The notes under the pieces: model-generated
Database searches by the model: none
Seen by the model: the letters and a program-made list of their open reading frames with translations, nothing else
What the model was told of the DNA's origin: nothing
Shown here: one piece after another, positions 7,418-50,813 of the stretch
How the letters are laid out: every line of letters begins with the position of its first letter
Numbering within the stretch: the stretch's first letter is position 1
From: Bacteroidaceae bacterium
GTDB lineage: Bacteria; Bacteroidota; Bacteroidia; Bacteroidales; Bacteroidaceae
Direction: 5' to 3'
DNA: 60,101 nucleotides
Assembly (NCBI GenBank): GCA_017546505.1
Contig: JAFYWV010000120.1
Location: 1-60,101, forward strand
Translations under genes and position numbers: made by a program

Positions 7418-9496
7418 TTACACCATACCGATATCTGCCGACTCCTCATCTGCCGTAACTACTCTACTTTTGTCTGTGGCAACAGCAGGTGACAATGATA
7501 CTGCATCCTTATCGACACCCGCCTTTGCATTGCTTTGCAATTGCTCCATAAGCTCAGGTGGAATACCCTCAAGCCCCCTTCCTTGAGCGGCAGCCTCTTC
7601 ATTACGCTTTATAGCTTCGAGAATTTTTGTAGCAAACGGATAGGAAGAGTTCTCGAGCATTGTTTTGACATCCAAAGCGTTTGCACGAAATAGTTCCATA
7701 AGAAAATCATTGGCAAGCATCTGATAGGCCGGTGTATTATACCCGTCGGCTATTGTTATATCAAGCTCACAATCTTGCACTTTCTGCGGGTCATACCATT
7801 TTGCCTCTTCACTGTATTGAGAGCCGGCAAGGGCAATGTAACGGTTCTCGTTATAATACTGTTGAAGTGTTTTCATCACCTTTGTATCACGACGTCGGCG
7901 AAAAGTTCTGAAACCATCAAACAGCCCCTTGAGATTAAGAGAAGAGTTCTGTACCTGTTGGGCATAGAGCGAAGCCGGAGTTCCCGACCGCGGAGTCTGA
8001 CCCTGCATAGCAGAATTTACACCCGAGATTTCATTAATGAGCCTCAACTGCAAGTTCAGCAATTCAAAATCACCTGCAACGGCGGCACCACTGTTATACT
8101 GGCGCACAACCCCATCAATACTCTGCCCCGGTTTAAGTTTCACAAAAAGTACGCCATTGTAGCGCACATACTCGTCAATGACCTCTTCACGCGTCATACT
8201 CTCAAAAGCATCGTCGTCAACAACAAGCACTCCCTTTGAAGATGTGCCACGAATAAAGTCAATCAACGTTGCAGTGCGGTTTATTGCACGTTGTTGATCA
8301 ATGAACTGCTCAACAAAGTTACCTAGCCGCCCTTGAACTAGCGGGTAAAGGTGCAGCACATAATTATGTTCACCGTGCCAATAAGGGCTGCGCCCCTCTT
8401 GCAGCACATCTCCATAGGGTGACATATAGCGATAATACCAGAAACGTTCGGTTGCAAATTCATACTCAACAAGCAAAAGGTCATCATCGGATACAAAATT
8501 CCCGCTTTCAGTTTTCACACTTCCGCTTTCAGCTTTCACACTTCTGTTTTCAGCTTTCAAACTTCCGCTTTCCGCTTCTTTTCTACGTCGTGCATTTTCG
8601 TCATCAAGTTTTTTGCGACTCGTTTCGTTGTATGGCAGATACCCCCACGTTCCGCGCGCAGTATCGTTCCACAGATAAGCGTCACTCGTTTCAAGTTTCC
8701 ACCCCAGGATTACACGGCAGAGATTACTGTGCGATGCCGCATAAAAAGAGAGTGAGCGAGCCTCATCGCCTTGCATTGCACGAGCATTTGTACATTGCCC
8801 GTCAACAGCAGAGTAGATATTACGGATACGTTCCTTTTGCTGAGACGTGGTGCCAAAATGGGCTAAAACATCATCAAGTGGCAAATCAAACAGTTCACCG
8901 ATGCAGCTCAAATCCCACATACGCACATCCTCGAGATTGGTATTGAAGAACAGCCGTGATGGGTTTACCGAATAGACCCACACATCACGTTTATCTTTTG
9001 AATGGTTCACCCCATACTCTATCCTTTGAGCAACCATACCTCCATTCAAAAGCATACGCATAGAATCGGCATCAATCTCCTCCATCTCATTTATATCGTG
9101 AACATACTCGATAGCTACAGACATCATCTCTCCCACACGCCCCTCGTTCTGGTCACGGGCTACACACACAGGACGCATAAGATTCTGCCGCAGCTGCCCC
9201 TCGATGTTGCTCAATATCGGTGCTATCATATTGTTCTTCAACGGTACTTTCCCGTTCTTTTTTATGAGGTCACCTTCTGTCATTTGAGCAAGCGTATCAG
9301 GGTCGGTGACAAGGTCGCCCCACTGGTCACCATAGCTGTACATAAGGCTTCGCCGCAGTTTGCGGCGAGCCTCATCAAGAGCATTCCAACAGGCAGCACA
9401 TTCGCAAAGGAAATCATAGGCTGCGCCAGGTTCCTTTTCGGGCTCGTGTACACGGTGTGGTATAGCTTTTACACGTTTGTCAAGAAATTTATTCAT
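7418..9496 (-). CDS. Phage portal protein (P22/podovirus-like)
   Basis: 692 residues, close to the roughly 700-residue portals of P22-like podoviruses. The portal forms the dodecameric ring at one capsid vertex through which DNA is packaged and ejected. Pattern: an N-terminal segment with YSYGDQWGD and NNMIAPILSNIEGQLRQN, a middle domain with VNPSRLFFNTN, the stem-like region FVEQFIDQQRAINRTATLIDF, and a helical crown with LINEISGVNSAMQGQTPRSGTPASLYAQQ, all typical of large portals. The ATG at 9496 is preferred over the in-frame GTG at 9499. Residues about 309-335 are a low-complexity tandem heptad. Last gene of the cluster 1 minus-strand operon, 13 nt after the 1475-residue gene. Terminase and capsid are absent here but present in cluster 2. 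Confidence 0.85.
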   Translation of the reverse strand: MNKFLDKRVKAIPHRVHEPEKEPGAAYDFLCECAACWNALDEARRKLRRSLMYSYGDQWGDLVTDPDTLAQMTEGDLIKKNGKVPLKNNMIAPILSNIEGQLRQNLMRPVCVARDQNEGRVGEMMSVAIEYVHDINEMEEIDADSMRMLLNGGMVAQRIEYGVNHSKDKRDVWVYSVNPSRLFFNTNLEDVRMWDLSCIGELFDLPLDDVLAHFGTTSQQKERIRNIYSAVDGQCTNARAMQGDEARSLSFYAASHSNLCRVILGWKLETSDAYLWNDTARGTWGYLPYNETSRKKLDDENARRRKEAESGSLKAENRSVKAESGSVKTESGNFVSDDDLLLVEYEFATERFWYYRYMSPYGDVLQEGRSPYWHGEHNYVLHLYPLVQGRLGNFVEQFIDQQRAINRTATLIDFIRGTSSKGVLVVDDDAFESMTREEVIDEYVRYNGVLFVKLKPGQSIDGVVRQYNSGAAVAGDFELLNLQLRLINEISGVNSAMQGQTPRSGTPASLYAQQVQNSSLNLKGLFDGFRTFRRRRDTKVMKTLQQYYNENRYIALAGSQYSEEAKWYDPQKVQDCELDITIADGYNTPAYQMLANDFLMELFRANALDVKTMLENSSYPFATKILEAIKRNEEAAAQGRGLEGIPPELMEQLQSNAKAGVDKDAVSLSPAVATDKSRVVTADEESADIGMV
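8495..8575 (-). repeat. Tandem 21-bp repeat inside the portal gene
   Basis: Four imperfect 21-bp units encode the heptads ESGSLKA, ENRSVKA, ESGSVKT and ESGNF, a hydrophilic linker in the middle of the portal. The units differ by few bases, so copy number could vary by slippage; because the unit is a multiple of three, the frame would be kept. Confidence 0.75.
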
Positions 9497-9509
9497 CACA
9501 AAATCTTTT

Positions 9510-12500
9510 TTAGTTCAACACATCAAGTTCATCCTCGAGATGGCTAAACCTGTCACGCCACTTTTGGAATTCCAATTCATCACGACGACGGCGTTTCTTC
9601 TCATCCTCTTTCATCTTGTACTCACCATAGCCATAATCGTTCCTCTGCTTTTCAGGGTATTTCATCCTCATCAGCGCATCCTTGGCATACTCCTCCATCT
9701 CACGTTCAAAGCGCCCACGCTCATTGGGTGAGAGAGTGGCATTGCGTACACGTCTATTTATCTCGTCGAACTGCAGAGGAGAGTCGTTATGTATCTGCTG
9801 CATTTTATAATATATGATATCCAGCGGCCCTGTGAAATATTTCTTCAAATCATCAAGCTTCATCATTGCCGCCCAACCCTTTGGCCGGGGAACATCATCG
9901 CCCGAGCCCCTCACAGCCTTGCGCACTTCGGCATCATCGTTAAACGGCACAGATGTCCCGGTGAGCTTATAAATAGTATAGTCGTCAAGCGATGGAAAAC
10001 GTTTTGCAAACTCACTCGGCAAAAAACCATACTCCTGCTCAAACACTTTGTCTATCTCACGGTTCTTGTCAAAATCAGGGTCGGCACGCCTTGCATTTTC
10101 CATTGACTCAATAACTTTTTTTGCTTCGCCATATTTGCGACCGAGCCTTGAATCAAGTCCAAACAAATTCTTTGACACAGCCTTGTTGAAACCTTCATAG
10201 TCACGCACTACATCCTGCACTGCAGCCGACAGGTAGTGTGATTTATCAGGGTTTGCAAAGAAATTCCTATCGAGCAACAACTGTTTTCCAATGTTATCGT
10301 AGCTCAATGGTATGTGGGATCCTTCAACAACCTTCACCGGTAAATCTGCCAGCTCGGGATATGCGGCATAGAATGAAGGATTGTGCAAAAGCTCACCAAG
10401 AGTGCCCTCGCCCCTCTTTTCAATCTCTGCCGCGCGCGAATAGTCAATACCGTCATAATCAAAGCCATTTATTTTATTGCCATCGTTCTCACTATTGTCA
10501 ACCTGACGAAACTTGTCTTTCGATTTCAGTTCCATAACCCGTTCTTCGGTAACATTCCAACGCCTGAGTGCTTTTTTCTTCAGCTCATCAGGCAACATCT
10601 CATAATTGTGAAACAGTTTGTCATTATACAATCCTGCCGGAGTTCTTGTGAAATAGTGACCGGCTGCAATTTTTTCTCTAACACTCTGCTCATAGGCTTC
10701 GCGGTCATTATAGGTATTCTCTTTTTGTTTGGCGGCATCGAACCTGCCAAATACCCAACGACGATAATCGGATGGAGCTTTACGCTGCTCTATATATTTC
10801 GCGTGCTGACGCAGCAGACTCATCAGGTCGCTTTCAGTGAGACGTCTGTTGCGCCCTGTATAGATATTTAGCCTGACAAGTGAGTTCTTGAGAAAATCCT
10901 TGAAGCTTGTGAGTATTGTGCGTTCACCCGATGAGAGGGCACTCTTCTCGGTAAGATGAGCAAGATACTCCTCTATCAGTGTGTAATTGTCAACTAAAGG
11001 ATACCTGCCTTTTGTATTTTCAATACCCATACGCACATCACCCGATGATTTCAGATACACCTCCTCAAGAAACGAACGGAAGTGATTTCCAAAAAGCTTC
11101 AAAAGGCCGGAGTGTGCCACACATTCGTGCACGACAGTCCTCTCCACATCCTCAACTGAGGAGATATTTGGCAAGTTAATGGTTACTTTACCATCATTGC
11201 CAAGCCATCCCATTGCACGGAGCTTGCTGTTGTAGTTATTTACATCAACCTCATCAGCTTCATTGGGTAAAGGTATTTCCCGTTCGTTTCTGACGACTTC
11301 AACCTCATAGCCAAATTTATCGGCAAACTCACGCGCCTTACGTTCAAAGAAATCCAAATCTTCAACAGTGTTCTTAACCCCATTGTAGCTCCACACGTAT
11401 GGAGATTCTTTATCGTCATTAATCTTTAAAGGCTTCACCTGTGGTCCTTTCCCCAGCGCATTGGCATCTTTGGGATGTGCAATATAGTAGTCCTTGACCT
11501 CCTTGGCTTTAACCTCATCGTTTGTCATTCCTTTGTATATACTTCTCTCACCCAATTGCCTGAAATCAACCGCACGCCGGCTATCCGTTCCGCCTTTGAG
11601 AGCATCAACTTCATTGCGCACCAGAGCCTCATATTCGTCAAGGGCTGAATTCGCAGCATTGGAGCGGGTGTAGAAAGGCTCCTTGATATCCACCAGCAGA
11701 CTGCCATCCTCAAGCCGGTGCTTTCTCTCAATCTCACGACGCATATCTGCCAAATACTGCACCATTCCGCTCTGGTTATAGGCAGTGCGTTCCACAATGT
11801 CACGCACCATCATCTCCTCCCAACCGGCGAGCGGGATATTCTGTGCCTTCTTGTACAAGGCTTGTGAAATATCATCAACGCTGACGCTCTTCTCCTTGGC
11901 ATAGAGTCCGGCCTGTCTAAGAAGGTTCTGCGAGTCGACACCCTGCAACAATTCACGTTCATAGGCCGCAATGCGGTTGTCACGCAATTTGCTCTTCTCC
12001 ACAAGCATATAGCTCTTTAGTTTTGCGGGGTCGTCAAAGAGCCGACGTTCAATCTTGTTACCTTCAAAGTCATAAGTTGTAAAAGCCCATATACCCTTGG
12101 CTGTTTTCTCCACATTGTAATCAAAAGCCACAGGTGGTGTCGAAGTGAGTTTATTCTCGACGACATACATAAGTTTAGCCTTTGTTGCAGCCGTGAGTTC
12201 CTTACTCTGCATCATCTGAAGATATTTTTGAGTGATACCTTCTCGTGTTGAGCCAATTCCATAGGAGGGCATTTTCAACGCACTCTCCACCTGGCTCATA
12301 AACTCATCCGGTTCAATGTTCATCTCACGCATTTCGGCCTTCTCCGACTCGGACAACTTTAGTTCATCCTTTAGCGTACCGTCACTCTTCAGTTTGTTCG
12401 AAGCCCCTTTCGGTCTCCAATTTGTCATCTTCATAATGCCGAGTGTTGCCAAGCCCTCTCCAAAATCGTGGAGAATATCAATGGGTTCAATCTCTACATC

Positions 12501-13937
12501 ATTGGCAAGTTTGTCCAGTTCGGTCGAGAGTGTAAAGATAGCCGATTCTGCACTCAGCACACCAGCTGAAGCGGCCATTTTGCTGCCACCGGTCAAGCCA
12601 CGTGCAGCCCTATTGAGCCAAGTTGCAGCTGTACCGACAGTTGCACCGGTAGCAACACCTTTGGCAAAAGAGCCCAGAGCCTTGCCGATATCTATACTAT
12701 TGTTGTAGAGAACATCATCGGCAATACTGTTGGCAATGTCATATGTTCCAAGCACCACTCCTTGAGTTGATGCACTCTGGAGTATCCTATTTTTCAGGCT
12801 ATTTGCAATTGCACGCTCTGCAATAGCCGTGGCACGCTGCATTGTCATTCCCTCGGCAGCCTTGTAAGCAAAAACCCTGCCGGCAAGTTTGTTTGTTGCA
12901 TACGCAGTAGCCTTGCCCACCAGGTTTCCGGCCAATGAACCAATAGAAGCAAAGACAGGTGCATCAATCAACAAAGAGCCCACGCCTGCAGCAAATTTCT
13001 CCCAACCATTGGCATCATAACGGGCAAGACTCTCATTCTCAATCTTTGCAAAAGGCTTGTTACCGAAACCAATGTCGTTCATTTTTCCTATTAAAGAATT
13101 CTTGTAGCTCGCCCTCAACAAATACTCGACACTGTTCTTTGGCTTATCTTTTTCTGTGTAATCATCAACCATTTTCTCTCGCAACGTAGGCTTCACATAA
13201 TCCTCTATATACATATCCACATCAAACCCTCCGCGACGAGCCAGCGGCTCTACCATCTGTCTAAGTTTCTGCATATCCATCTGCGCCAACGTCTCATCGG
13301 CAGCCTTTACCGGGTCAGCCTCCTCACGCGCTATACGCATTGCAGCCACCGGATCGCCCGAATAATCGGCAAATGCCTTGTTGGCACGAGTACGTGCCGC
13401 ATCGAGTTTCCGGTCATATACCGACGACAAATCATCCTTGAAATAGTCGGTGGCTACATCATCCAGAGCCTTGGATGAAACAGAATATAGAGCAGCCGCC
13501 CTTTCGGGTGTTTGTTCGGGGAAGAAACGAGAATATGTATAGTCCCATAAACCACCCTTGTTGCGACCGGATTCCATAAGATTTTTTGATGACATATAAC
13601 TCTTCGGTTTCTCATTGGCTGTGTTACGTGTGAACGTAAACGGCGAGTCGGCAGCCCCACTGAACTTAGTAACATCCCTTACATCGCCAGGCAAATAGTC
13701 CGGTATCTGTTTGCTGTTCTCTTTATCCATAAAGGAAGATGCATAGAGAGTATTCTCAAAGACCGCATCCTTTCCATAACCACCGAAAGAGGTCTGCTCC
13801 ATAGGATTGCCCTCATCTATACCCTGCTGAAACGGAGTTTTTGCACCAAGCAACGAGTCGTGCTCGTTGCCAGCTGCAAAATCTCCAATTTCACGCTTTC
13901 TCTTTTTATTCTCCTCGTTTAAATTTACTGAATACAT
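9510..13937 (-). CDS. Giant phage protein, candidate ejection/internal virion protein with HExxxH motif
   Basis: 1475 residues, mostly charged and helical, far larger than its neighbours. Residues about 310-470 hold a run of Gly/Ala-rich hydrophobic segments (SIGSLAGNLVGKATAYATNK, GSFAKGVATGATVGTAATWL), as in internal virion or ejection proteins that cross membranes during DNA entry. Around residue 937 is VVHECVAHSGL, an HExxxH-like pattern followed downstream by an acidic helix (LIEEYLAHL), resembling zincin-type domains of large polyvalent phage proteins; metal binding is inferred only. The rest (Lys/Glu/Arg-rich, repeated helices) has no assigned fold. It lies between small virion-like genes and the portal in one operon, matching the position of ejection-protein genes in podoviruses. 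Not recognised beyond this class. Confidence 0.6.
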   Translation of the reverse strand: MYSVNLNEENKKRKREIGDFAAGNEHDSLLGAKTPFQQGIDEGNPMEQTSFGGYGKDAVFENTLYASSFMDKENSKQIPDYLPGDVRDVTKFSGAADSPFTFTRNTANEKPKSYMSSKNLMESGRNKGGLWDYTYSRFFPEQTPERAAALYSVSSKALDDVATDYFKDDLSSVYDRKLDAARTRANKAFADYSGDPVAAMRIAREEADPVKAADETLAQMDMQKLRQMVEPLARRGGFDVDMYIEDYVKPTLREKMVDDYTEKDKPKNSVEYLLRASYKNSLIGKMNDIGFGNKPFAKIENESLARYDANGWEKFAAGVGSLLIDAPVFASIGSLAGNLVGKATAYATNKLAGRVFAYKAAEGMTMQRATAIAERAIANSLKNRILQSASTQGVVLGTYDIANSIADDVLYNNSIDIGKALGSFAKGVATGATVGTAATWLNRAARGLTGGSKMAASAGVLSAESAIFTLSTELDKLANDVEIEPIDILHDFGEGLATLGIMKMTNWRPKGASNKLKSDGTLKDELKLSESEKAEMREMNIEPDEFMSQVESALKMPSYGIGSTREGITQKYLQMMQSKELTAATKAKLMYVVENKLTSTPPVAFDYNVEKTAKGIWAFTTYDFEGNKIERRLFDDPAKLKSYMLVEKSKLRDNRIAAYERELLQGVDSQNLLRQAGLYAKEKSVSVDDISQALYKKAQNIPLAGWEEMMVRDIVERTAYNQSGMVQYLADMRREIERKHRLEDGSLLVDIKEPFYTRSNAANSALDEYEALVRNEVDALKGGTDSRRAVDFRQLGERSIYKGMTNDEVKAKEVKDYYIAHPKDANALGKGPQVKPLKINDDKESPYVWSYNGVKNTVEDLDFFERKAREFADKFGYEVEVVRNEREIPLPNEADEVDVNNYNSKLRAMGWLGNDGKVTINLPNISSVEDVERTVVHECVAHSGLLKLFGNHFRSFLEEVYLKSSGDVRMGIENTKGRYPLVDNYTLIEEYLAHLTEKSALSSGERTILTSFKDFLKNSLVRLNIYTGRNRRLTESDLMSLLRQHAKYIEQRKAPSDYRRWVFGRFDAAKQKENTYNDREAYEQSVREKIAAGHYFTRTPAGLYNDKLFHNYEMLPDELKKKALRRWNVTEERVMELKSKDKFRQVDNSENDGNKINGFDYDGIDYSRAAEIEKRGEGTLGELLHNPSFYAAYPELADLPVKVVEGSHIPLSYDNIGKQLLLDRNFFANPDKSHYLSAAVQDVVRDYEGFNKAVSKNLFGLDSRLGRKYGEAKKVIESMENARRADPDFDKNREIDKVFEQEYGFLPSEFAKRFPSLDDYTIYKLTGTSVPFNDDAEVRKAVRGSGDDVPRPKGWAAMMKLDDLKKYFTGPLDIIYYKMQQIHNDSPLQFDEINRRVRNATLSPNERGRFEREMEEYAKDALMRMKYPEKQRNDYGYGEYKMKEDEKKRRRRDELEFQKWRDRFSHLEDELDVLN

Positions 13938-14269: not shown

Positions 14270-14791
14270 TTACTCCCTACCCCATTGCGTTCCCAACAAT
14301 GCATTCTGGAAAAGATTATAGCCATTAGTCGCAGCCGAGATAGCCATCCGTTCGTCATTTGCCAATTCATTGAGTTCACTGTTCAACAAAGCATTTTTCC
14401 TTTGACGATGTATTGCATCAACCTGACTCTTTCTATTATCATCCTGTGCAGCCAGATTTGTCACAACATTCTCCATAGAGCGCAAGCCTTGCTCGTTGCC
14501 TGCAATAGAATATTCCGGCGTAGCACCGGTAACAATTGAATGCGCCCGCCTCTGCTCGTTGTTCCTGCGCAAACTGTTCTCAACCCTTTTCATTGCAGCT
14601 CTTGCAGCAGTGCTGTCAATGAAATTCCCGTAATAGTTGCGCCTGTACCAACCCTCTTCCTCGGCTTTAGCCTTATCACGCAACGCATCTGCACTCTTTG
14701 ATGCCGCATATTTGTCGAGCACCCCTTTCACACCCGAATAGAGTCCTAATGCACCATTCAAGCCTGTTAAAATTTTAAATACACCATTCAT
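14270..14791 (-). CDS. Candidate internal virion protein (small ejection protein type)
   Basis: 173 residues from MNGVFKILTG. The N-terminus has a Gly-rich hydrophobic stretch (ILTGLNGALGLYSGVKGVL), followed by a long Ala/Arg/Glu/Asn-rich helical region, a layout seen in small internal virion proteins of podoviruses such as the T7 gp14 type. The frame is open upstream to 14851, but the -7 box of the promoter lies at 14805-14812, so the ATG at 14791 (about 10 nt after the expected transcription start) is chosen. First gene of the cluster 1 minus-strand operon; the giant protein and portal follow. Assignment is from composition and position, not clear homology. Confidence 0.55.
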   Translation of the reverse strand: MNGVFKILTGLNGALGLYSGVKGVLDKYAASKSADALRDKAKAEEEGWYRRNYYGNFIDSTAARAAMKRVENSLRRNNEQRRAHSIVTGATPEYSIAGNEQGLRSMENVVTNLAAQDDNRKSQVDAIHRQRKNALLNSELNELANDERMAISAATNGYNLFQNALLGTQWGRE

Positions 14792-14804
14792 AAGTTTTTT
14801 GGTG

Positions 14805-14839: not shown

Positions 14840-14872
14840 GAAATACCACAATAATGCAACCCTGCAATTATT

Positions 14873-15171: not shown

Positions 15172-15174
15172 CCC

Positions 15175-43016: not shown

Positions 43017-43455
43017 AATTTATATACTCTTTAAGGCAACCGCTGCGTTCAAGCATTTTAAGGCTAAACACATAATAAAGGAAATTCAACACACTGTACA
43101 ATGTGCTCTTCTCATTTGTTATAAGACGAGCGTTACGCAAGATATTTGTGCCGTAGAAATATATTGCAACATATATCGTAAACGACACACAATGTACGGC
43201 TGCCTTTTCCTCACCCTTGAAGTAGCCCAACATATAGATGCAGGCAACCATCGCAAAAAATATTGCAGCATCACGAAAAAAGCTGAAAGCTTTTCTGAAA
43301 CTCCAATCACGATGGTTGCATACATCGGCAAGCAGGCCAACGACAAAATTGGCTGTAAAAAGAAGGACAAGCCCGAAAATATCGTTCCAGATAGGAAACA
43401 ACAGCCCCACGACATTAACTATAAGTGACGCTGTAACAACCCTCAAGCTATCCAT
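42988..43455 (-). CDS. Phage holin family protein
   Basis: 155 residues with about four membrane segments: VVTASLIVNVVGLLFPIWNDI, FGLVLLFTANFVVGLLADV, AAIFFAMVACIYMLGYF and AVHCVSFTIYVAIYFYGTNIL. Between helices 2 and 3 is NHRDWSFRKAF, a pattern I associate with Bacteroidetes phage holins. Holins form inner-membrane lesions that time lysis. It overlaps the spanin gene. No endolysin gene is adjacent. Confidence 0.75.
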   Translation of the reverse strand: MDSLRVVTASLIVNVVGLLFPIWNDIFGLVLLFTANFVVGLLADVCNHRDWSFRKAFSFFRDAAIFFAMVACIYMLGYFKGEEKAAVHCVSFTIYVAIYFYGTNILRNARLITNEKSTLYSVLNFLYYVFSLKMLERSGCLKEYINYEKHSKKIS

Positions 43456-43467: not shown

Positions 43468-44124
43468 TTACTCTTTTTTACCACTTTGAGCGTCACAAGC
43501 AGCCAATGCCAACGACAACATTGCATTGGCAGCATCGTAACGTTCGAACATTGTATAAAGCAACGAAGCACACTTGTACACAACAGCGTCCACCATTCCG
43601 TTTTCATAGCCATTCAAACCTTCTTCGGCATTGAATGCAGCCTCATAGATGAAATGCTTTGGCACAGCACCTTCACCGTCGGGAAGCGGGAAAAGCCTTG
43701 CACACCTTTTCCCGCCCGACGTAAACGCCTCGACACAAACAGGCCTGCAACACCCGGCACGAGTATATTCATTCTGTTGCCAGAAAGCCTCGCGCGAGCT
43801 ATGTGCGTACATCCTGCACGCCGGCGATTGCCAACCGGCAAGCTGTAACGACACAAGGCTCACGAAATCATCGGGCAGAAGCAGTTCTCCCACACCATCT
43901 TCATCAACTGTAATATCCAATGCAGATGGAGTAACGGTTCTGCTATTCACACACCCTGCATTCACTCCTTTGTTGCTCTGAACGAAAAGAACGGCACGAG
44001 GCAGAAGTTCCAAAATGCTATCATCCAGCGAACGGGTGTCGACCGACAAGAGTGAGACATCGTTGTCGTCAACAGCTTCGTTGATGACAATCCTCACCTT
44101 TCTCAAAAGTTCAGCACATTCCAT
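43468..44124 (-). CDS. Head-tail adaptor/head completion protein candidate
   Basis: 218 residues from MECAELLRKVRIVINEAVDD. The N-terminal helix, the SLDDSILELLPRAVLFVQ segment and a C-terminal helical part (DAVVYKCASLLYTMFERYDAANAMLSLALAAC) fit the ring-forming adaptors that sit below the portal in podoviruses. The middle part is beta-rich (LLLPDDFVSLVSLQLAGW). The ATG shares one base with the upstream stop (TAATG), so translation is coupled. Function inferred from position between capsid and lysis/nozzle genes. Confidence 0.6.
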   Translation of the reverse strand: MECAELLRKVRIVINEAVDDNDVSLLSVDTRSLDDSILELLPRAVLFVQSNKGVNAGCVNSRTVTPSALDITVDEDGVGELLLPDDFVSLVSLQLAGWQSPACRMYAHSSREAFWQQNEYTRAGCCRPVCVEAFTSGGKRCARLFPLPDGEGAVPKHFIYEAAFNAEEGLNGYENGMVDAVVYKCASLLYTMFERYDAANAMLSLALAACDAQSGKKE

Positions 44125-44546
44125 TACAACCAATTAGGAAATGAAACAGAATTTGCTTTAGCCACACTCTTTATAGAGTTCTTGTTCTGCAACTGTGACA
44201 AAGAGCAGTTATAGGGTTCTGCCATCAGGTAGGCACGCGCCTGTTGCATATTTGTCACCTCGGTCGCCAAAGTACACTTTACAACATCAGCAACATCATC
44301 TGTTGTTGCACTATCATCCTCGAGCACATCAACCTTTCCACGCTTTATCTCGCCGCAACGGAAAGCGTCACTGTTCTCTATCGCACGCTGGAAAAGCGGA
44401 TTATCAGTTGAATACTGAGCCGGATAAACACCTGTGGAGTTTATTGCACCACCTGTAAATTCAATTCTCACCAGAGCCTTACCAATTCTGAAATAGCTGT
44501 TACGCTCTATCTGGCCGTGTATCTCATAAGTAATACGTTTTCTCAT
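44124..44546 (-). CDS. Phage structural protein of unknown function
   Basis: 140 residues. N-terminal beta-like part (ITYEIHGQIERNSYFRIGKALVRIEFTGG in pattern), then GVYPAQYSTDNPLFQRAIENSDAF, and a helical, Ser/Asn-rich C-terminus (NMQQARAYLMAEPYN). Sits directly downstream of the capsid gene, after a GC-rich hairpin, and is coupled to the adaptor gene. A head decoration or fibre role fits the position, but I do not recognise the family. Confidence 0.6.
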   Translation of the reverse strand: MRKRITYEIHGQIERNSYFRIGKALVRIEFTGGAINSTGVYPAQYSTDNPLFQRAIENSDAFRCGEIKRGKVDVLEDDSATTDDVADVVKCTLATEVTNMQQARAYLMAEPYNCSLSQLQNKNSIKSVAKANSVSFPNWL

Positions 44547-44606: not shown

Positions 44607-46226
44607 TCAGACAAGAATCTCCCCTGTGTACTCTACCCAAGTCGTACCATTGTATGTCACAACCGTGCCTGCGGCGAACCACAATTTGCTCGCACCATCG
44701 ACTGTGCGATTAACATCGGCTGTGAGAATGACCACGTCGTTGAGGTTCGGCTCATCGGGCAATGAAGCAGCGCTTGTCACGTGTGAAGCACCAGGGATGT
44801 CACTCTCGGTAGCAGAACCATTCACCCAAATATGCGAGTAGCCTTTCAAGCAGAGACAGTCGATGCTCATCACCACCTCGCGCTTAGCCTCTTCGCCGTC
44901 GACATTCTCGGTCTTTGCATCCTCGTTTTTCATATAGTAACGCACCAAGCCATTCTCGTCAATCAAGCCACCGCAATGAGCATAACCCAAAGCATCGAGT
45001 GTCGGGTCGTGAACAAGGTCAATGTCACCGAACACAGTGTGGATTTTTGTACACTCAATGCCGAACACCTTGTCGCCGGTGACGCTGATGTTCTTGTGGA
45101 GTGTGAGGTCAATCTTCTGGATATCGTTGAGCAACTGCTTACCCAACAACCATATAGCCCTCTTTGTGCAGTTAAATCCGGTAAACTTCACCATAGAGAG
45201 GTTAATGAGGTCGGCAAATGTAATCTTTGATGAGAGGTCATACTGGCGTTTGAACTGCCAACGTATACCTTTTGAGAAATAATCCCACTGGTAACCCATA
45301 GCATTGTCCATAGCCTGCACCTTGAACTTACCGGGCTGCCCCACCCACGCTGTGCGGCAACTCTCGAGACGGAACTGACGCAACACCGCTTCGGCAATCT
45401 GCGACTCATTGAACTGAAGACGCTTTTTCTGCGCTGCAAAATAGTCACTGACAATGCTGTTGCAAAGTTGTTTCTGCAAGTACATACGCTCAGGAACAGG
45501 AACTATTGTAGATGGTGCTATGAACTTCTGTGTCTCGTATGCAGCCGATGACAACAGAATAATCTCAGTGCCGGCAGGTATGGTAGGGACAACACAATAG
45601 TCATCGCTGGGATTGGTCTTTGGACCATTTACAGCCATTGCAATAGGCGCTTCAGTGGTACTGTTCTTGCCAACGAAGAAAAGCATAAGGTCTACACCCG
45701 GCAACTCAATCTGGCCTGTCGGGTCGTAGCCGTTAACGCCTTTACAGATAGCCGTGTAATACTCCTGGAAAATCTTTCTCTCGCCGGTGGTTGAGAAAGG
45801 TATCTCGGCACGAGTAGCCTTAATACCGGTGTATACAGCATTGGTGTAGGCCTTTGAACGTTTGTCATCAATGAGATAATGGTCGACCTCGAACGAATTT
45901 ACACGCACCTGACGACGTATCTTACGTTTGATGGTGTCAATCACGCTCTCATCACTGGCAATGTTCACAATCTGCGTGTCAACATCAGCATCAATCAGGT
46001 CAACACCCAGTTCACTTGCATTTGCCACAGTTGTTGCCTCACCGAGGCCTTGTGTTGCAAGACCGGCAATACCCTTTGATGCTTTGGTAGACCCGGCCGG
46101 AACGACAGAGACCGTAGCCAACAACACACCCGCCTCGGCATTATCCACAGCAAAAAGCAATACCGACACCAAAGAAACAATCACATAGAGAGGATTCTCT
46201 CTCAAAAAAATCAAAATCTTCTTCAT
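44607..46226 (-). CDS. Putative major capsid protein with signal-like N-terminus and C-terminal beta domain
   Basis: 539 residues. It follows the scaffold gene, as capsid genes do. The core (about 90-470) has features of HK97-fold coat proteins: an N-arm and helix with ESVIDTIKRKIRRQVRVNSFEVDHY, then mixed alpha/beta sequence with ITFADLINLSMVKFTGF and KIHTVFGDIDLVHDPTLDALGYA. The last 50 residues (NDVVILTADVNRTVDGASKLWF ...) look like a small beta decoration domain. Odd: residues 1-33 are a strongly hydrophobic, signal-peptide-like stretch (LYVIVSLVSVLLFAVDNAEA), not expected in a cytoplasmic capsid. No later in-frame ATG gives a sensible start. Capsid identity rests on order and size. Confidence 0.65.
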   Translation of the reverse strand: MKKILIFLRENPLYVIVSLVSVLLFAVDNAEAGVLLATVSVVPAGSTKASKGIAGLATQGLGEATTVANASELGVDLIDADVDTQIVNIASDESVIDTIKRKIRRQVRVNSFEVDHYLIDDKRSKAYTNAVYTGIKATRAEIPFSTTGERKIFQEYYTAICKGVNGYDPTGQIELPGVDLMLFFVGKNSTTEAPIAMAVNGPKTNPSDDYCVVPTIPAGTEIILLSSAAYETQKFIAPSTIVPVPERMYLQKQLCNSIVSDYFAAQKKRLQFNESQIAEAVLRQFRLESCRTAWVGQPGKFKVQAMDNAMGYQWDYFSKGIRWQFKRQYDLSSKITFADLINLSMVKFTGFNCTKRAIWLLGKQLLNDIQKIDLTLHKNISVTGDKVFGIECTKIHTVFGDIDLVHDPTLDALGYAHCGGLIDENGLVRYYMKNEDAKTENVDGEEAKREVVMSIDCLCLKGYSHIWVNGSATESDIPGASHVTSAASLPDEPNLNDVVILTADVNRTVDGASKLWFAAGTVVTYNGTTWVEYTGEILV

Positions 46227-46268: not shown

Positions 46269-47075
46269 TTAAGCATTGAGTGCTTTTTCAATCAATGAGT
46301 TACGGGGACGTTTACGTTCAATGTCAGGAGCAACACTGCTCATCCCCTTCGGCAACCCATCTCCAAAATCCTCCTTCATACGTCTGATATTGGAGTTGCG
46401 CCCTTTTATGTCACCGGCAATGAAAGCATCCTCAACATCCTTTTCGTAGGTGATAGCGTGGTCAAGAGCCATACACACATCATCGGTGTATTTACCTGCC
46501 ATAATGGGGAAAATGAGCATCTCCCACACATTATCCATAAAATCGGACGGGTCGTACCCCCTGTTTTTGCAAAATGCTTCAATCACAGGCATACTGGCTT
46601 CAAGATTTGCCTCATACTCTCTGCGGTCGTTGGCAAGACGCATAACCTCATTCTTGCGATCTTCGTCGGCAAGCATAATTTCCTCGAATTCAGGACTATC
46701 CTCGTCAACACCCATAAACCCGCGACCGAAATAACGTGCAACAGCACTGTGTGCACCACGCTTGCCATCAATAATGTCGGCAAGCATCTGCGCCAGACGC
46801 GGGTCACTCTCAAGCATTGATGCCAGACGCTCATTCTGTTCACGGTTCATAGCAAGATGCCTTAAAAGTAAATCCTGCGACAGCTTGTCATAAATATCAA
46901 ACTGTCCGCCAAAAAAGCCGTTCAACCTCTTGTTAAAGTTCTCCAGTGAATCCTGTTCACTGTGCAGAACATCGTCTTCTGCATTGTCAGCAGGTAAAGC
47001 ATTTGCAATACCGTTGCTCTCAGCAGGCTCAACATACTGCTGAGCCGCCATACTGTTTTTTAAGTTCTGTTCCAT
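46269..47075 (-). CDS. Phage scaffolding protein candidate
   Basis: 268 residues, highly acidic and helical (HSEQDSLENFNKRLNGFF, REQNERLASMLESDPRLAQML), ending in a basic tail (PDIERKRPRNSLIEKALNA). Acidic helices with a basic C-terminal coat-binding tail are typical of scaffolds, and it lies 42 nt upstream of the capsid gene. First gene of the cluster 2 late operon, driven by P3. Confidence 0.7.
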   Translation of the reverse strand: MEQNLKNSMAAQQYVEPAESNGIANALPADNAEDDVLHSEQDSLENFNKRLNGFFGGQFDIYDKLSQDLLLRHLAMNREQNERLASMLESDPRLAQMLADIIDGKRGAHSAVARYFGRGFMGVDEDSPEFEEIMLADEDRKNEVMRLANDRREYEANLEASMPVIEAFCKNRGYDPSDFMDNVWEMLIFPIMAGKYTDDVCMALDHAITYEKDVEDAFIAGDIKGRNSNIRRMKEDFGDGLPKGMSSVAPDIERKRPRNSLIEKALNA

Positions 47076-47098: not shown

Positions 47099-47141
47099 CA
47101 AAGGAACAACCAAAAAGCCCGGACAAGGTTGCTATATTGCC
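47099..47141 (-). promoter_or_regulatory. Phage-cluster promoter P3 (cluster 2 late operon)
   Basis: Minus strand: GGCAATATAGCAACCTTG (47141-47124), exactly 17 nt, then TTCCTTTG (47106-47099), a one-mismatch -7 box. AGCAACCTTG is identical to P1 and P5. Predicted leader about 20 nt to the scaffold ATG. Confidence 0.7.
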
Positions 47142-47240
47142 ACTTATTGCTAAAACAATCACAACACAAGAGAAGCACCTTTTTAATATAGAGAAAGACG
47201 AATTGTCAAAATTCCCGGTAATGTCATTTGTGTCTTTTTT

Positions 47241-47303
47241 ATGCTGTTGATAAATAAAGTGTCAAAACAGCATACGTTTTAGTCATTTTTGACTATATTT
47301 TTG
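47241..47303 (+). promoter_or_regulatory. Phage-cluster promoter P4 with inverted repeat
   Basis: GTCAAAACAGCA (47261-47272) is identical to P5 at the same distance (35 nt) from the -7 box, here TATTTTTG (47296-47303). The ACCTTG half of the element is not kept (TACGTT). ATGCTGTT (47241-47248) and AACAGCAT (47266-47273) form an 8-bp inverted repeat over the element. Leader about 10 nt. Confidence 0.65.
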
Positions 47304-47317: not shown

Positions 47318-47761
47318 ATGAGAAGAATAGTAAATGAGGATGTCCGCGACATTCGTAAACGCGACGTGTTGAACAGTTTCTTTGAATCATTGAAAGAAGT
47401 GAGGAAGACAAGACCCTATGCGACACAGGATGAGATTATCAAACACGCAGTAAAAAGCAAAGCGCCACGTTTTTACGTAACATTTGAAAATGCACGCCGC
47501 TTTGTATCGTTGCTATCACGCAAAAAGAAACTCCCGCTTATAAACAGGAACAAACTGGCGATGTACAAGGAGATATATCACCGCTACTTACAAAGGGTCA
47601 AGGACAATGGCAAACGCTACAAGTACATCGTTCTTGAACAGATAATAGAAGAGCCCGCCCCATCGTTCTACCTTGACACCGAGACTTTTCGTGGTATCGT
47701 CTACAAAACACTCCGCAAACATCAAAATGTCAAAACAGCAACCTTGCAGCAATTATATTGA
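47318..47761 (+). CDS. Phage protein with duplicated APxFY motif, candidate small terminase or regulator
   Basis: 147 residues, basic. Two related halves: KSKAPRFYVTFENARRFV (about 46-63) and EEPAPSFYLDTETFRGIV (about 111-128), each an APxFY motif followed by a helix. The N-terminal helix (DIRKRDVLNSFFESLKEVRK) and the QDEIIKHAVK segment could be a small HTH. I have seen APRFYV-type proteins near mobile and phage genes of Bacteroidetes but cannot name the family. First of four plus-strand genes leading to the large terminase, so a small-terminase role fits. P5 lies inside its 3' end. Confidence 0.6.
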   Translation: MRRIVNEDVRDIRKRDVLNSFFESLKEVRKTRPYATQDEIIKHAVKSKAPRFYVTFENARRFVSLLSRKKKLPLINRNKLAMYKEIYHRYLQRVKDNGKRYKYIVLEQIIEEPAPSFYLDTETFRGIVYKTLRKHQNVKTATLQQLY

Positions 47762-47771
47762 AATACTTTTG
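47729..47771 (+). promoter_or_regulatory. Phage-cluster promoter P5 (terminase operon)
   Basis: GTCAAAACAGCAACCTTG (47729-47746), 17 nt, then TACTTTTG (47764-47771), an exact -7 box. This is the fullest copy of the shared element. It overlaps the last codons of the 47318 gene and gives a leader of about 20 nt to the ATG at 47795. Confidence 0.75.
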
Positions 47772-47794
47772 CACAGTAAAAAATAATAGAGAAT

Positions 47795-48262
47795 ATGAAT
47801 GTCACATTTGTCATAACAAAAGAAAAAGTCTACAGGCAGATATTCGCGACAAGCGCACACACGACCCGCGCCCGTGAAGCAATAGGTCTTCCACAAGGAA
47901 TAACAGAAAGAATGCTAATCACTGCAGACAACAAGCATATAATAGCCCCCCTCATAGACAACAGCATCAACGATGTTTATGCAGAGATTGTACGCTACCA
48001 CCCCGATTGCAGTATAAATTTTACCCGGAACGGAGAAGGTGACGGATGCTACGTATTCAATATGAACATACCATCGAACTACCCGACCGACAATATAAAC
48101 CAGCTGGAACAGAGAGTAGAAAGCTACATTGTCAACAGTACATTGCAAAACTGGTACAGCAATGTAAAACCCGACGAAGCAAGCATCATTGCAACAAAGA
48201 GACAGAACGATGCTGCAATCATTCAAATGCTGCTCACCCGACGCACAAAACCCTTGAACTGA
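47795..48262 (+). CDS. Phage protein of unknown function, paralogue of the next gene
   Basis: 155 residues, alpha/beta. No signal peptide or membrane segment. Its C-terminal half (QLEQRVESYIVNSTLQNWYSNV) matches the same region of the next gene (MLERAILDYLVNETIMHWLLL): LE/RxxxxYxVNxTxxxW. Central part: PSNYPTDNINQ against PVDERNHLLPM. The pair may be diverged duplicates. They lie between the APxFY gene and the large terminase; the pair could form a hetero-oligomer in packaging. Unrecognised. Confidence 0.6.
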   Translation: MNVTFVITKEKVYRQIFATSAHTTRAREAIGLPQGITERMLITADNKHIIAPLIDNSINDVYAEIVRYHPDCSINFTRNGEGDGCYVFNMNIPSNYPTDNINQLEQRVESYIVNSTLQNWYSNVKPDEASIIATKRQNDAAIIQMLLTRRTKPLN

Positions 48263-48275
48263 GAACCGATATACT

Positions 48276-48752
48276 ATGAAAAACAAAATAACTATAAAGA
48301 GAAGTGAGTTGCAACAGCAGATTAACTTGAGGAATTTCTATATGGGCGAATCGGCAAAACGAAAAGACAAAGACGCCGACACCATACAAAGCAGCAAAGA
48401 AGACGAAGACCTGCTACTTGCATTCACACACACAGCTTGTAACGAACTGGTCACTGCTGTTGCACTCCGCTTCCCTTCCATAAGCTACACGATAGACGAA
48501 AAAGAGATAATCTTTGAGTTTGAGACACCGGTGGATGAGCGCAACCACCTCCTTCCAATGCTTGAACGTGCGATACTTGACTACCTTGTCAACGAAACAA
48601 TTATGCACTGGTTGCTACTGCGTCGTCGTGATATGTCAGAATCAAACATCTCACTGCGTGCAAGCCTATACAGCAATGTGCTCTTTATGTTTGCCAAAAT
48701 GTACAACTCGAAAAAAATACGACGGCGTGCCACAAACCTCGCCGGTATATAA
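48276..48752 (+). CDS. Phage protein of unknown function, paralogue of the previous gene
   Basis: 158 residues. Charged N-terminus (KRKDKDADTIQSSKEDEDLLL), beta-like middle (SISYTIDEKEIIFEFETPVDE) and a helical C-terminal half with LERAILDYLVNETIMHWLLL that parallels the previous gene. Ends with a basic tail (NSKKIRRRATNLAGI) that could bind nucleic acid. It starts 13 nt after the previous stop and ends 15 nt before the terminase ATG, so all three are one transcript. Unrecognised; a small terminase is possible. Confidence 0.6.
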   Translation: MKNKITIKRSELQQQINLRNFYMGESAKRKDKDADTIQSSKEDEDLLLAFTHTACNELVTAVALRFPSISYTIDEKEIIFEFETPVDERNHLLPMLERAILDYLVNETIMHWLLLRRRDMSESNISLRASLYSNVLFMFAKMYNSKKIRRRATNLAGI

Positions 48753-48767: not shown

Positions 48768-50768
48768 ATGACACGAGAAGAAATTATAAAAGAAAATTAT
48801 AGACGGCTGAAAGAGATTTCAGCCGTCTATAATCCCATTACCGGCGAAGGCTCAACCTCCATACCACGTTGTGAGGTAAACATCAGTGGATTTCCCATAG
48901 AAAGACTATACCTGCCTACAACAATGTCGGCAGAAGAGTTGGTGCAGCAGTTACAACAATATGGTGCAGAGGGTTACCTGAGAGAAATAGAAGGAGAGTC
49001 ACCCTGCAACAGAAGCATCATCAAGCTATGGTTGAGGTTCTGCCTGCTGCGCATCAGACACGACTTTGAGTACTGGGCACGCACTATGACTACAATATCC
49101 GACAAAGGCAAGGGGCGCGACACAGCATTCATTCTCAACCGTCCACAACGCATATACCTCAAGGCTATGGAAACGTTGCGTCTGCAAAAGAAACCCATTG
49201 ACATAATCCTGTGCAAGGCGCGCCAATGGGGAGGCAGCACACTCACGCAGCTCTATATGCTGTGGATTCAACTTGTACACAAACAGAACTGGAACAGTGT
49301 CATCTGCGGTGACATCGAAAAGCAGTCATCCATCGTTGCCGGAATGTTAGCCAAAGTCATCAGTCGCTACCCAATGTGGGCAAGCGGAGGAAAGAAACTG
49401 ACCACTACCCCCTATCAAGGCGCACAAAAGACACGCGTCATCAGCTATAGCAACAGCCGCTACTCATTGGGCTCGGCACAGAAACCCGACTCACTGCGAA
49501 GCGAGGACATAAGTATGGCACACCTCACCGAGGTTGGGCTGTGGAAAGCCACACAAGGAAAGAAGCCCGAAGACCTTGTACAATCCATCTTCGGGTCAAT
49601 CGCTGCCGGTCCTTATACAATGAAGGTTATTGAATCCACCGCCAAGGGAGTCGGCAACTACTTTCACCGTACTTGGATTGACGCCACAGAACATAGAAAC
49701 AACTTTACACCGGTATTCATCCCGTGGTTCACGATAGACCTCTACAGCAAGCCCCTCAATGAAAATGAATACCCCGAACTTGTCGATAGCCTCGACGAAT
49801 ACGAGCAGCATCTCTTTGAACTTGGAGCAACGCTTGAAGCCATTGCCTGGTACAGAGACAAACGACGCGAAATGCCTGATGAGTGGCGACTCTTCTCAGA
49901 GTTTCCATCCACAGCAGCCGAGGCATTCCAAAGTAGCGGCCGACGAGTATTCCGCATCCCTTACGTAAACAACGCACGACGCGACTGCCAACCACCCACT
50001 TTCATTGGCGATATAAAAGAGACCATTGAAAACGGCAAGCCTACAACACATTTTGAGCCACTTGCTCCCGGAGAAAGAAGTGATGAGAATATTCTGAGTG
50101 TGTGGCTGATGCCGGAAAAAGAGGATAGCTTGCGCGACCGCTACATAGTTGCAGTTGACGTCGGAGGCACAAGCGAGAAAGCCGACTACTCCTGTATTCT
50201 GGTAGCCGACCGCCAATCGATGCCCGAGGGAGGTGTACCCGAGATTGCAGCTTGCTGGCACGGACACATAGAGCACGACCAGCTTGCCTGGAAAGCGGTA
50301 GAAATAGCCCGAGCCTATAATAATGCCCTGCTGGTAATAGAGTCCAACACACTTGAAACAGAAGGAACAGAAGGTAATAATTTTGAGTATATACTCAATG
50401 AGATTGCAAACAGATACAGCAACCTCTATTGCCGGACATCTCAAATAGAGATAAAGCAAGGACGCCCGCGCCGATGGGGATTTCACACCAACAGTTCAAC
50501 AAAACCAATGGTAATAAACTTCCTTATCAAAGCATTGCGCGATGGCTTATACATTGAAAGATGTTTACAAACGACATACGAACTCGACCTTTTCGAATTC
50601 AAGGAGAACGGCAAGGAGATGGGAGCTATAGAGGGGAATCACGACGACCGTGTAATGGCTACAGCCATTCTTGTGTGGGTGTGCTACAACCACCCGCTGC
50701 CCCAACGACAGACGCACTCATCCACATCAACAAAACGCACCCGCATCGTCAGCGAAGCGAGTATATGA
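48768..50768 (+). CDS. Phage terminase large subunit
   Basis: 666 residues; ATP-driven DNA packaging motor and headful/end-cutting nuclease. ATPase part: Walker A-like CKARQWGGST (149-158), Walker B ending at Glu255 in ISMAHLTEVGLW, and the coupling motif ESTAKGVG (289-296). Nuclease part: RNase H-like fold with YIVAVDVGGTSEKADYS (Asp464), LLVIESNT (Glu525) and EGNHDDRVMA (Asp626/627). All key residues are present, so it looks functional. The partner portal is absent from this cluster and lies 40 kb away in cluster 1. The stop codon is inside the left arm of the terminator. Confidence 0.93.
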   Translation: MTREEIIKENYRRLKEISAVYNPITGEGSTSIPRCEVNISGFPIERLYLPTTMSAEELVQQLQQYGAEGYLREIEGESPCNRSIIKLWLRFCLLRIRHDFEYWARTMTTISDKGKGRDTAFILNRPQRIYLKAMETLRLQKKPIDIILCKARQWGGSTLTQLYMLWIQLVHKQNWNSVICGDIEKQSSIVAGMLAKVISRYPMWASGGKKLTTTPYQGAQKTRVISYSNSRYSLGSAQKPDSLRSEDISMAHLTEVGLWKATQGKKPEDLVQSIFGSIAAGPYTMKVIESTAKGVGNYFHRTWIDATEHRNNFTPVFIPWFTIDLYSKPLNENEYPELVDSLDEYEQHLFELGATLEAIAWYRDKRREMPDEWRLFSEFPSTAAEAFQSSGRRVFRIPYVNNARRDCQPPTFIGDIKETIENGKPTTHFEPLAPGERSDENILSVWLMPEKEDSLRDRYIVAVDVGGTSEKADYSCILVADRQSMPEGGVPEIAACWHGHIEHDQLAWKAVEIARAYNNALLVIESNTLETEGTEGNNFEYILNEIANRYSNLYCRTSQIEIKQGRPRRWGFHTNSSTKPMVINFLIKALRDGLYIERCLQTTYELDLFEFKENGKEMGAIEGNHDDRVMATAILVWVCYNHPLPQRQTHSSTSTKRTRIVSEASI

Positions 50769-50813
50769 CAAAAAGCATCGGGAAAAGCCAACTTTTCCCG
50801 ATGCTTTTTGTCA
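50766..50813 (+). terminator. Terminator at the right end of phage cluster 2
   Basis: Perfect 22-bp arms at 50766-50787 and 50792-50813 with a 4-nt loop (ccaa). The left arm contains the terminase stop codon. Both arms contain A/T runs, so it can work in both directions and also protects the minus-strand side. Confidence 0.92.

Follow-up and report, generated by a model that had tools for sequence, protein, structure and literature searches.

How a bacterial chromosome comes to carry the genes of one phage particle at two distant places is the question raised by contig JAFYWV010000120.1 (Bacteroidaceae bacterium, assembly GCA_017546505.1). The window analysed here, 60,101 nucleotides long, is one whole contig (C116) of a 2.62-Mb genome in 130 contigs with 86% completeness. 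A first-pass annotation had proposed that a podovirus-like particle is split over two gene clusters and that it may be a domesticated DNA-packaging particle of Bacteroidales. Family searches and a gene order conserved across the genus confirmed the split particle; domestication is supported by co-occurrence of the clusters in relatives, persistence of the split, low ratios of nonsynonymous to synonymous substitution (dN/dS) and distances congruent with those of rpoB. Very probably, the two clusters constitute a viriform of the gene transfer agent (GTA) type, belonging to an uncultured ruminant-gut Bacteroidaceae genus and originating a single time from a short-tailed temperate phage of P22/SU10 type. 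As far as sequences can tell, its particle, packaging and lysis genes are near-fixed, vertically inherited host genes under purifying selection.

Judged by their family matches, clusters 1 and 2 encode a single P22/SU10-like short-tailed particle. Counts given below refer to the 44 genomes of the genus in the whole-genome set. Cluster 1 contains, on the minus strand, the genes for a P22-like portal protein (7418..9499; PF16510 (P22_portal) 7e-32, phrog_156 8e-55; 41/44 genomes), for a shortened ejection or injected protein of the polyvalent type with 1475 amino acids (9510..13937; phrog_14770 7e-12; 40/44) and for c193, a conserved protein of 193 amino acids with phage homologues whose gene adjoins the ejection gene (14270..14851; 37/44). 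On the plus strand lies a gene for a 77-amino-acid homologue of the small terminase (TerS; 14938..15171; 37 genomes), which was linked by a hidden Markov model (HMM) to genes of the sister phages described below and is devoid of the N-terminal helix-turn-helix of the phage form. The portal and ejection-type proteins assigned to cluster 1 by the first-pass annotation thus stand. The 134-amino-acid minus-strand open reading frame listed there (14788..15192) is probably an antisense artefact, the conserved gene at this place being that of TerS.

Cluster 2 begins with the minus-strand genes for a tail nozzle-like protein (39775..42717; phrog_32516 6e-39; at a third locus in clade D), a spanin-like lipoprotein (42573..43016; phage homologues; 34/44), a holin (42988..43455; Phage_holin_4_1 7e-4, below the curated cut-off; 33/44), a head-tail adaptor (43468..44133; SU10_adaptor 2e-4, below cut-off; phrog_22135 2e-12; 41/44), a conserved head-module protein of 140 amino acids (44124..44546; phage homologues; 41/44), the major capsid protein (44607..46226; phrog_26635 6e-23, SU10_MCP weak at 0.003; orthologues in 42/44) and a scaffold-like protein (46269..47075; phrog_22323 5e-16, a family to which no function is assigned; 41/44). 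On the plus strand are three small conserved genes with phage homologues (147, 155 and 158 amino acids; 47318..48752; 36, 36 and 33 of 44 genomes), located 5' of the gene for the large terminase (TerL; 48768..50768; phrog_2 8e-20). All functions previously assigned to this cluster were thus found, several by matches that are weak or below the Pfam cut-off; the names scaffold, nozzle and spanin derive from position, phage homologues and weak matches, and several cluster 2 proteins match PHROG families without assigned function. As had been stated, the frames in the window are open, and conserved host genes lie between the clusters, namely those of a two-component system, an exporter and an ATP synthase operon, the last recognised from its gene order and from homology among the loci. 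The catalytic residues noted in the window's terminase belong to ATPase and nuclease motifs that are kept in the 30 TerL sequences compared, the last motif being missing in one truncated sequence. The capsid protein of the window, like those at loci L149, L150, L151, L153 and L154, starts with a hydrophobic, signal- or membrane-like segment, found in the GTA and in several distant relatives; such a start is unusual in capsid proteins.

Both clusters co-occur in relatives, as domestication had led the first-pass annotation to expect. The capsid protein had a match in 43 of the 44 genomes and was orthologous in 42 including the window's own, the others being 77-94% identical. In G063 it is divided between two pieces of contig; only distant types were found in G015, and G005 (63% complete) had no match. 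The portal protein was found in 34/37 plus 7/7, i.e. 41/44 genomes, with G011, G014 and G027 (82, 75 and 67% complete) lacking it; a single in-frame stop was reported in one portal match (G022), near the C-terminal end. The few genomes from which capsid or portal is missing are incomplete or fragmented; both proteins are present in 11/11 genomes with at least 90% completeness and at most 5% contamination. Among 101 sampled genomes of the family, 96 are outside the genus, and distant capsid relatives (23-39% identical) were found in 6 of these 96. A named collection contributed 42 loci from 41 metagenome-assembled genomes, all with Bacteroidaceae or Bacteroidales in their titles; a ruminant gut site is named in 37 of the 42 titles, and one locus is a prophage of G008.

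Gene order was determined by tblastn of 47 window proteins against fetched loci and from a layout table. Across the genus, cluster 1 keeps the order portal - ejection protein - c193 - TerS and cluster 2 the order nozzle - spanin - holin - adaptor - 140-amino-acid protein - capsid - scaffold, with the genes for the 147-, 155- and 158-amino-acid proteins and TerL divergent. The two-cluster pattern is not a product of chance, as its core genes are arranged alike throughout the genus. Both clusters are on one contig in 11 genomes, and in eight of them, including the window, the ATP synthase operon lies between. The clusters therefore keep their separate positions in many species; contiguous relatives do exist in the form of the sister phages, and a unique, recent rearrangement, which the first-pass annotation had considered, does not fit a split shared by 8 of the 11 single-contig genomes. 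The distance from capsid to portal gene is about 103 kb in G002, more than the 64-68 kb of the genomes of related phages, and only about 14 kb in G018. In G018 and G030 the clusters are adjacent with a repressor gene pair between them, and in G018 a recombinase gene adjoins the portal gene. In both deep clades cluster 1 is bordered by the ligA neighbourhood, so that the clusters appear to have been split long ago and to have become adjacent secondarily, as read from trees rather than from a formal reconstruction. In five of the six genomes of the basal clade D (G002, G011, G024, G028 and G065) the nozzle gene is not beside the adaptor gene and is open at a third locus. Holin and spanin genes are about 25 kb from the capsid gene in G024 and beside the nozzle gene in G028. 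TerL was seen in 31/44 genomes, most of the other cases being contig ends.

Selection was estimated from median dN/dS (Nei-Gojobori; pairs with dS below 1.5). With dS near saturation the ratios are rough and probably too large, and they amounted to 0.068 for capsid (248 pairs), 0.106 for TerL (45), 0.116 for nozzle (2), 0.123 for portal (49), 0.129 for TerS (47), 0.156 for holin (79), 0.208 for the repressor described below (17), 0.224 for the 140-amino-acid protein (146), 0.236, 0.241 and 0.558 for the 158-, 147- and 155-amino-acid proteins (116, 64 and 53), 0.264 for scaffold (53), 0.269 for c193 (32), 0.38 for adaptor (47), 0.489 for spanin (65) and 0.505 for the repressor partner (32). Host genes gave 0.05 (ligA, 11 pairs), 0.07 (h3805, 64), 0.088 (h3019, 8), 0.027 (h720, 30) and 0.164 (atpG, 2); rows for atpA and atpD were left out, since atpD had stood in for atpA. 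Ratios well below 1, the sign of selection that the first-pass annotation had named, were thus obtained for capsid, TerL and portal.

Distance matrices of the particle proteins correlated with those of host proteins. Against the linked ligA, r was 0.775 for capsid (n=20), 0.688 for portal (n=23) and 0.882 for TerL (n=15); against the unlinked rpoB (27 full-length genes from the 44 genomes) it was 0.809 (n=26), 0.54 (n=26) and 0.372 (n=21), respectively. The observed ligA or rpoB correlations were reached in 0/999 permutations each. Capsid and portal distances correlated with each other (r 0.758, n=36). Trees, calculated by FastTree, of capsid, portal and rpoB contain the same main groups, with G005 and the pair G008/G062 attaching differently. 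A corresponding test with atpA (r 0.05-0.30) was discarded, the homologous atpD having been taken where atpA was outside the fetched stretch.

The closest phage relatives were obtained from IMG/VR. A scan with the portal alignment gave 17 relatives, of which the best seven were 53-58% identical and none exceeded 58%. These seven loci (L301-L305, L315 and L317) represent about five distinct phages, the capsids of L301 and L302 being identical and those of L305 and L317 99.8% identical. A scan with the capsid alignment yielded nothing, and its two peptide patterns also missed these sister phages; absence from IMG/VR thus rests on the portal scan. Nothing was found in scans with the c193 and TerS genes of G008. 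The sister phages have the same structural genes as the GTA: portal and terL genes are convergent and at most 60 bases apart in 7/7 loci, and scaffold, capsid, 140-amino-acid protein and adaptor genes then come in GTA order in 5/7. Their capsids are 34-64% and their TerLs 53-61% identical to those of the window. Unlike in the GTA, TerS has a helix-turn-helix in the two sister phages examined, and the ejection frame comprises 3104-3330 amino acids in four (L301, L305, L315 and L317); it comprises 2240 in L302 near a contig end and up to 5395 in distant phages. Ejection frames in the genus have 1113-1888 amino acids (one piece of 175 amino acids at a contig end set aside), i.e. by frame length the injected protein appears mostly shorter than in phages. 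G008 carries, besides its GTA, a contiguous prophage (G008:C6) that encodes an integrase and TerS and has an ejection frame exceeding 3200 amino acids; portal and capsid identities are about 56% and 74%. Its nozzle lies in two reading frames (L145 12247-15101), as does the portal of one IMG/VR phage (L305 10001-11922).

In trees including the sister phages and 16-18 GTA copies the GTA was monophyletic, with support values of 0.93 (portal), 0.95 (capsid) and 0.68 (TerL). Before the IMG/VR phages were included, a capsid tree had placed the G008 prophage inside the GTA clade. The two halves, for which unrelated phage origins had initially been considered, therefore go back to one phage lineage: each of the three trees has a single GTA clade near the same phages. 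More distant relatives in the phage collection are the Bacteroides phages BS-TP4, BF1-TP2 and BKO1-TP3, whose portal (32-34%) and capsid (about 24%) are homologous; HMM searches of two of them also detected other particle genes. In contrast to the GTA they are phages with genomes of 64-68 kb in which an integrase or recombinase is annotated, and in BS-TP4 replication genes are annotated as well.

In the GTA, TerS has 77-84 amino acids (88 with the start chosen in G007) and is divergent from c193 in all 37 genomes; in the four genomes with a portal and without TerS (G015, G020, G021 and G026) cluster 1 is close to a contig end. Homology to phage proteins became detectable only once two sister phages were added. 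Among the frames of 83 loci from IMG/VR and of five further phage or prophage loci, the TerS HMM matched exactly two proteins, one of 160 amino acids in L374 (contig of L301; E 2.3e-5), with GTA positions 6-78 aligned to phage residues 82-154, and one of 156 amino acids in L318 (contig of L315; E 1.4e-3). Both genes occupy the same divergent position as that of the GTA. HTH_Tnp_1 scored above its curated cut-off in L374 (residues 15-68) and L318 (7-60), and the family scan detected no helix-turn-helix in the GTA protein. Profile comparison gave a score of 25.2 with a three-phage alignment, compared with a maximum of 18.9 in 100 column shuffles, and 30.3 with four phages together; singly, scores were 29.5 (L374), 28.0 (L318), 17.2 (L351) and 16.6 (G008 prophage). 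GTA TerS thus appears to match the C-terminal half of sister-phage TerS. The TerS of the Rhodobacter agent RcGTA likewise appears to be without the N-terminal helix-turn-helix, which has been proposed as the basis of random packaging (PMC6854486, in the part drawn on here). Judged by this analogy, no other molecular feature of the present system seems to point to a gene transfer agent as clearly as the truncated TerS.

Two kinds of DNA element suggest that the clusters are under shared control. Between them, a CI-like S24 repressor is encoded (24295..24921, minus strand; Peptidase_S24 2.4e-12, phrog_4 repressor 2.5e-23, HMM match to the BF1-TP2 repressor 5e-9) next to a divergent partner without function by annotation (25161..25553, plus strand); both were divergent in the fetched stretch of 23 genomes, and the pair (24295..25553) is probably part of the system. 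The Ala-Gly, Ser and Lys columns of the repressor, which we take to be the cleavage and catalytic residues, are invariant in 24/24 sequences. A palindrome AGCC-N6-GGCT (25042..25055) between repressor and partner is a candidate operator, as is AGTC-N6-GACT (47281..47294) in the promoter of the terL arm. The general form AGYC-N6-GRCT, which presumably overlaps the Bacteroides-type -7 element, occurred in the repressor intergenic region of 16/23 genomes (mean of single-base shuffles 0.08) and in the terL-arm promoter of 24/35 (0.36), and in none of 37 TerS regions.

The second element, termed the GTA box, is an 18-bp sequence of the AAGGTTGCTGAAATGACA type. It was found in the promoter region of cluster 1 (14831..14848, plus strand, with an inverted partner at 14872..14889, minus strand), between scaffold gene and terL arm (47125..47142, plus strand) and 5' of the gene for the 155-amino-acid protein (47728..47745, minus strand); these four are the only sites of the window above 20 bits and are confined to the two clusters. 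Boxes resembling AAGGTTGCTGAAATGACA with at least 14 bits were present between the scaffold and 147-amino-acid protein genes in 29/35 genomes and between c193 and TerS genes in 29/37, and in 0/23 repressor intergenic regions; in the sister-phage intergenic regions examined the box was weak or absent (best 14.1 bits). Without recourse to a motif, the longest string common to the two promoter regions of a genome averaged 12.1 bases versus 8.6 after shuffling. A common string of at least 11 bases was seen in 13/32 genomes (5.9% in shuffles), with a GTTG core in 12 of the 13, and G029 and G062 have matched box variants in both clusters. Exact sites numbered 169 in the 44 genus genomes (at least one in 43), whereas the reversed pattern gave 5; 13 genomes from other genera had 6 sites and 8 from family f22 had 7, with controls of 3 and 2, respectively. 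The share of sites in the clusters is circular, because the pattern was built from them; sites elsewhere are not. Upstream of the relocated nozzle gene of clade D a box was found in G024 and G065 (0/50 shuffles as good), weakly in G011 and G002 (1 and 2 of 50), and by this test not in G028 (29/50).

A box just upstream was also seen at genes elsewhere in the genome (L292 1129-1632, L300 437-940, L294 1212-1838 and L293 1739-2932). These encode a DUF6973 and a DUF5675 protein, each accompanied by a lipoprotein, and a protein of 398 amino acids; the box at the DUF6973 gene is kept in G000 and G003, and lysis or effector functions are possible. In G024 (L295, L296 and L297) identical boxes are near genes for two related, apparently secreted proteins (leucine-rich-repeat-like by eye) and a sigma-70-like factor.

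A second set of such genes occurs in family f22, sampled with nine genomes of one genus. Capsid (59-71% identical to that of G057) and TerL (42-45% to that of the window) were found in 9/9 and an orthologous portal (67-72% to G057) in 8/9, G170 having only a partial match of 52%. In all eight, capsid and portal genes are on different contigs, and the TerL gene that matches best is either separated from the portal gene by 28-49 kb or on another contig. By the HMMs used, the portal gene stands alone and scaffold, capsid and adaptor genes form a three-gene island. Median dN/dS was 0.107 for portal (7/28 pairs) and 0.077 for capsid (6/36 pairs); one stop was reported inside the portal matches of G169 and G171, and the open frames used have none. 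Phages fall between f22 and the window's genus in trees, which suggests independent domestication. The f22 set is probably a second, more scattered Bacteroidales system that was domesticated independently. G057 had also been considered as the carrier of an ordinary prophage, a candidate rejected on the presence of these genes in 9/9 genomes of its family. Beside the scattered set, f22 also has prophage-type portal and TerL copies (L279, L290 and L291; in G164 the capsid too).

A number of observations weigh against a gene transfer agent or against single steps of the argument. The system is known here from its genes, and neither particles nor packaged DNA nor transfer were observed. Every genome used is a draft assembly, each species is represented by one, and the named genomes are metagenome-assembled. 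No dedicated endolysin was identified in the system. Relatives of a tyrosine recombinase (15625..16827) are near cluster 1 in 7/44 genomes, the window included. In G020, the sixth clade D genome, a nozzle was not found, the contig breaking off before the place beside the adaptor gene could be assessed; the fetched stretches of G024 and G029, although they cover the place next to the scaffold gene, have no terL arm there. The TerL-rpoB correlation is weak (0.372), and G009 is misplaced in the rpoB tree, grouping with another clade than its own capsid and portal, which local transfer or a binning error would explain. Statistically, the evidence linking TerS to phage proteins is modest (hhalign probability 20-54%; E 2.3e-5 and 1.4e-3 in a small set); the genes at the same position in L351 and the G008 prophage gave nothing significant singly, nor did BS-TP4 gp62, BKO1-TP3 gp58 and BF1-TP2 gp71 of the distant phages. 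Box and palindrome were first spotted by eye in the same data, the palindrome also occurs at four other places in the window, and comparisons involving the box-free repressor region were likewise above the null (7/21 versus 16%; 4/22 versus 5.7%).

Among the alternatives, a domesticated particle kept for a purpose other than gene transfer, such as killing by a PBSX-like particle or delivery of proteins in a shell, survives best. The GTA-box genes outside the clusters (DUF6973 and DUF5675 with lipoproteins, the surface proteins of G024) resemble effectors or lysis enzymes, and an HExxxHxG motif is retained in the injected protein, namely in 40 of the 41 frames longer than 900 amino acids, two of these frames being prophages. 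However, strong purifying selection has conserved portal, TerS and TerL with its ATPase and nuclease motifs, which would be needless for a DNA-free particle, and we consider this explanation improbable.

Much less credit is due to a prophage broken by rearrangement, or two remnants persisting by chance. The existence of contiguous relatives, including the integrase-bearing G008 prophage of the same genus, and the recombinase near cluster 1 could be taken to indicate such an origin, but intact orthologues in 41-42 of 44 species, a capsid dN/dS near that of housekeeping genes, host-congruent distances and a nozzle gene that is relocated yet open in the basal clade make it very unlikely. The recombinase at 15625 was rejected as the phage's own integrase, being distant from phage-type integrases (23-31% identical in alignments of at least 200 residues) and confined to 7/44 genomes. 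Members of its family (60-84% alike; L133, L116, L142 and the three fragments L119, L123 and L126) are found at either end of cluster 1 and may mark an insertion hot spot.

Equally poor are the prospects of a temperate phage that is integrated in all species and vertically inherited and still excises and spreads. This view could draw on the retained repressor, the adjacent clusters of G018 and G030 and the recombinase beside the G018 portal gene. Against it, integrase and replication genes contiguous with a structural module, as in temperate phages, were not seen: no phage-type integrase or replication gene is in the genus-conserved set (flanks are not fully annotated in every genome), host genes (ligA, the ATP synthase operon) lie beside or between the clusters, and arrangements differ between clades. 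Moreover, no IMG/VR portal exceeded 58%, and instead of a sporadic distribution with host-discordant trees, the genes are present in 41-42/44 genomes with congruent distances. That one cluster is a capsid-hijacking satellite and the other derives from its helper, as the division of structural functions between loci might suggest, is the least likely explanation of all, because neither the integrase and primase nor the replication module of capsid-encoding satellites is in the conserved sets and because both halves are near-fixed in the same genomes, congruent with each other and close to the same phages.

The preferred explanation, a GTA-type viriform, would work as follows. By analogy to LexA and CI, the repressor could be inactivated via RecA after DNA damage and thereby release the terL arm, and a trans-acting factor reading the GTA box would switch on both clusters together. 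The terminase, with a TerS devoid of a sequence-reading domain, would fill heads with any chromosomal DNA it meets; holin and spanin would release the particles, and portal, nozzle and the shortened injected protein would pass the DNA into related cells.

Three of the six features of gene transfer agents in Kogay et al. 2022 (PMC9662315, as far as used here) are recognisable at the sequence level: full, often multi-locus endogenization, here mostly in two clusters and in clade D in at least three loci; mostly vertical inheritance or co-diversification, as indicated by trees and Mantel tests against ligA, h3805 and unlinked rpoB; and particle proteins derived from caudoviricetes, with portal, capsid, TerL, adaptor and others matching phage families and phages. 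As to a further feature, own genes too extensive for one particle, the wide capsid-portal distance of G002 and the short one of G018 point in different directions; for packaging of mostly random host DNA, a TerS devoid of a DNA-binding domain is an indirect sign. The split itself is not new, as multi-locus gene transfer agents are already known (PMC11841831, part of text). Few gene transfer agents have been described, mostly in Alphaproteobacteria (PMC12946183, PMC9662315; sections used). The former source reports lateral transduction in Bacteroides and FpGTA of Faecalibacterium, called there the first GTA-like element of podovirus-like morphology. Similarities to FpGTA, in the portion of PMC12946183 referred to, are genes of short-tailed-phage type that form two operons (separated by about 125 kb in one strain), a possible small terminase with no obvious DNA-binding domain, and the presence of operon I in 12/12 Faecalibacterium genomes examined there. 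It differs in its Bacillota host and in that particles and packaged DNA were shown, the present system being likened to it by description and from genes. With RcGTA the system shares, according to the excerpts of PMC6854486 and PMC9662315 used, a TerS apparently lacking the N-terminal helix-turn-helix, several loci and vertical inheritance; unlike RcGTA, which was compared by description, it matches P22 portal and, weakly, SU10 capsid and adaptor models. By title and opening of the abstract, no gene transfer agent of Bacteroidota was found among the open-licence papers listed; preprints and subscription work may differ.

Bacteroidota is a phylum abundant in animal guts, and the system offers a mechanism for chromosomal gene exchange among gut Bacteroidales. 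Because close relatives are contiguous phages, a living sister lineage is available for comparison with the changes of domestication: loss of integrase, of replication genes and of the reading head of TerS, shortening of the injected protein, dispersal of loci and a shared promoter box. It thereby becomes testable whether phages generally lose the DNA-binding domain of TerS on the way to gene transfer agents. A more tentative, joint reading, possible rather than probable in our view, is that a single group of temperate short-tailed phages was domesticated by Bacteroidales at least twice (in this genus and in f22), each time yielding a gene transfer agent with scattered loci. In this genus the GTA box would then define one regulon that also drives the lysis- or effector-like genes (DUF6973, DUF5675 and lipoproteins), coupling DNA release with attack on, or lysis of, cells. 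Apart from this system, three further terminase-like genes of the same genome (L001, L002 and L003; G000:C76, C66 and C1) probably belong to ordinary prophages.

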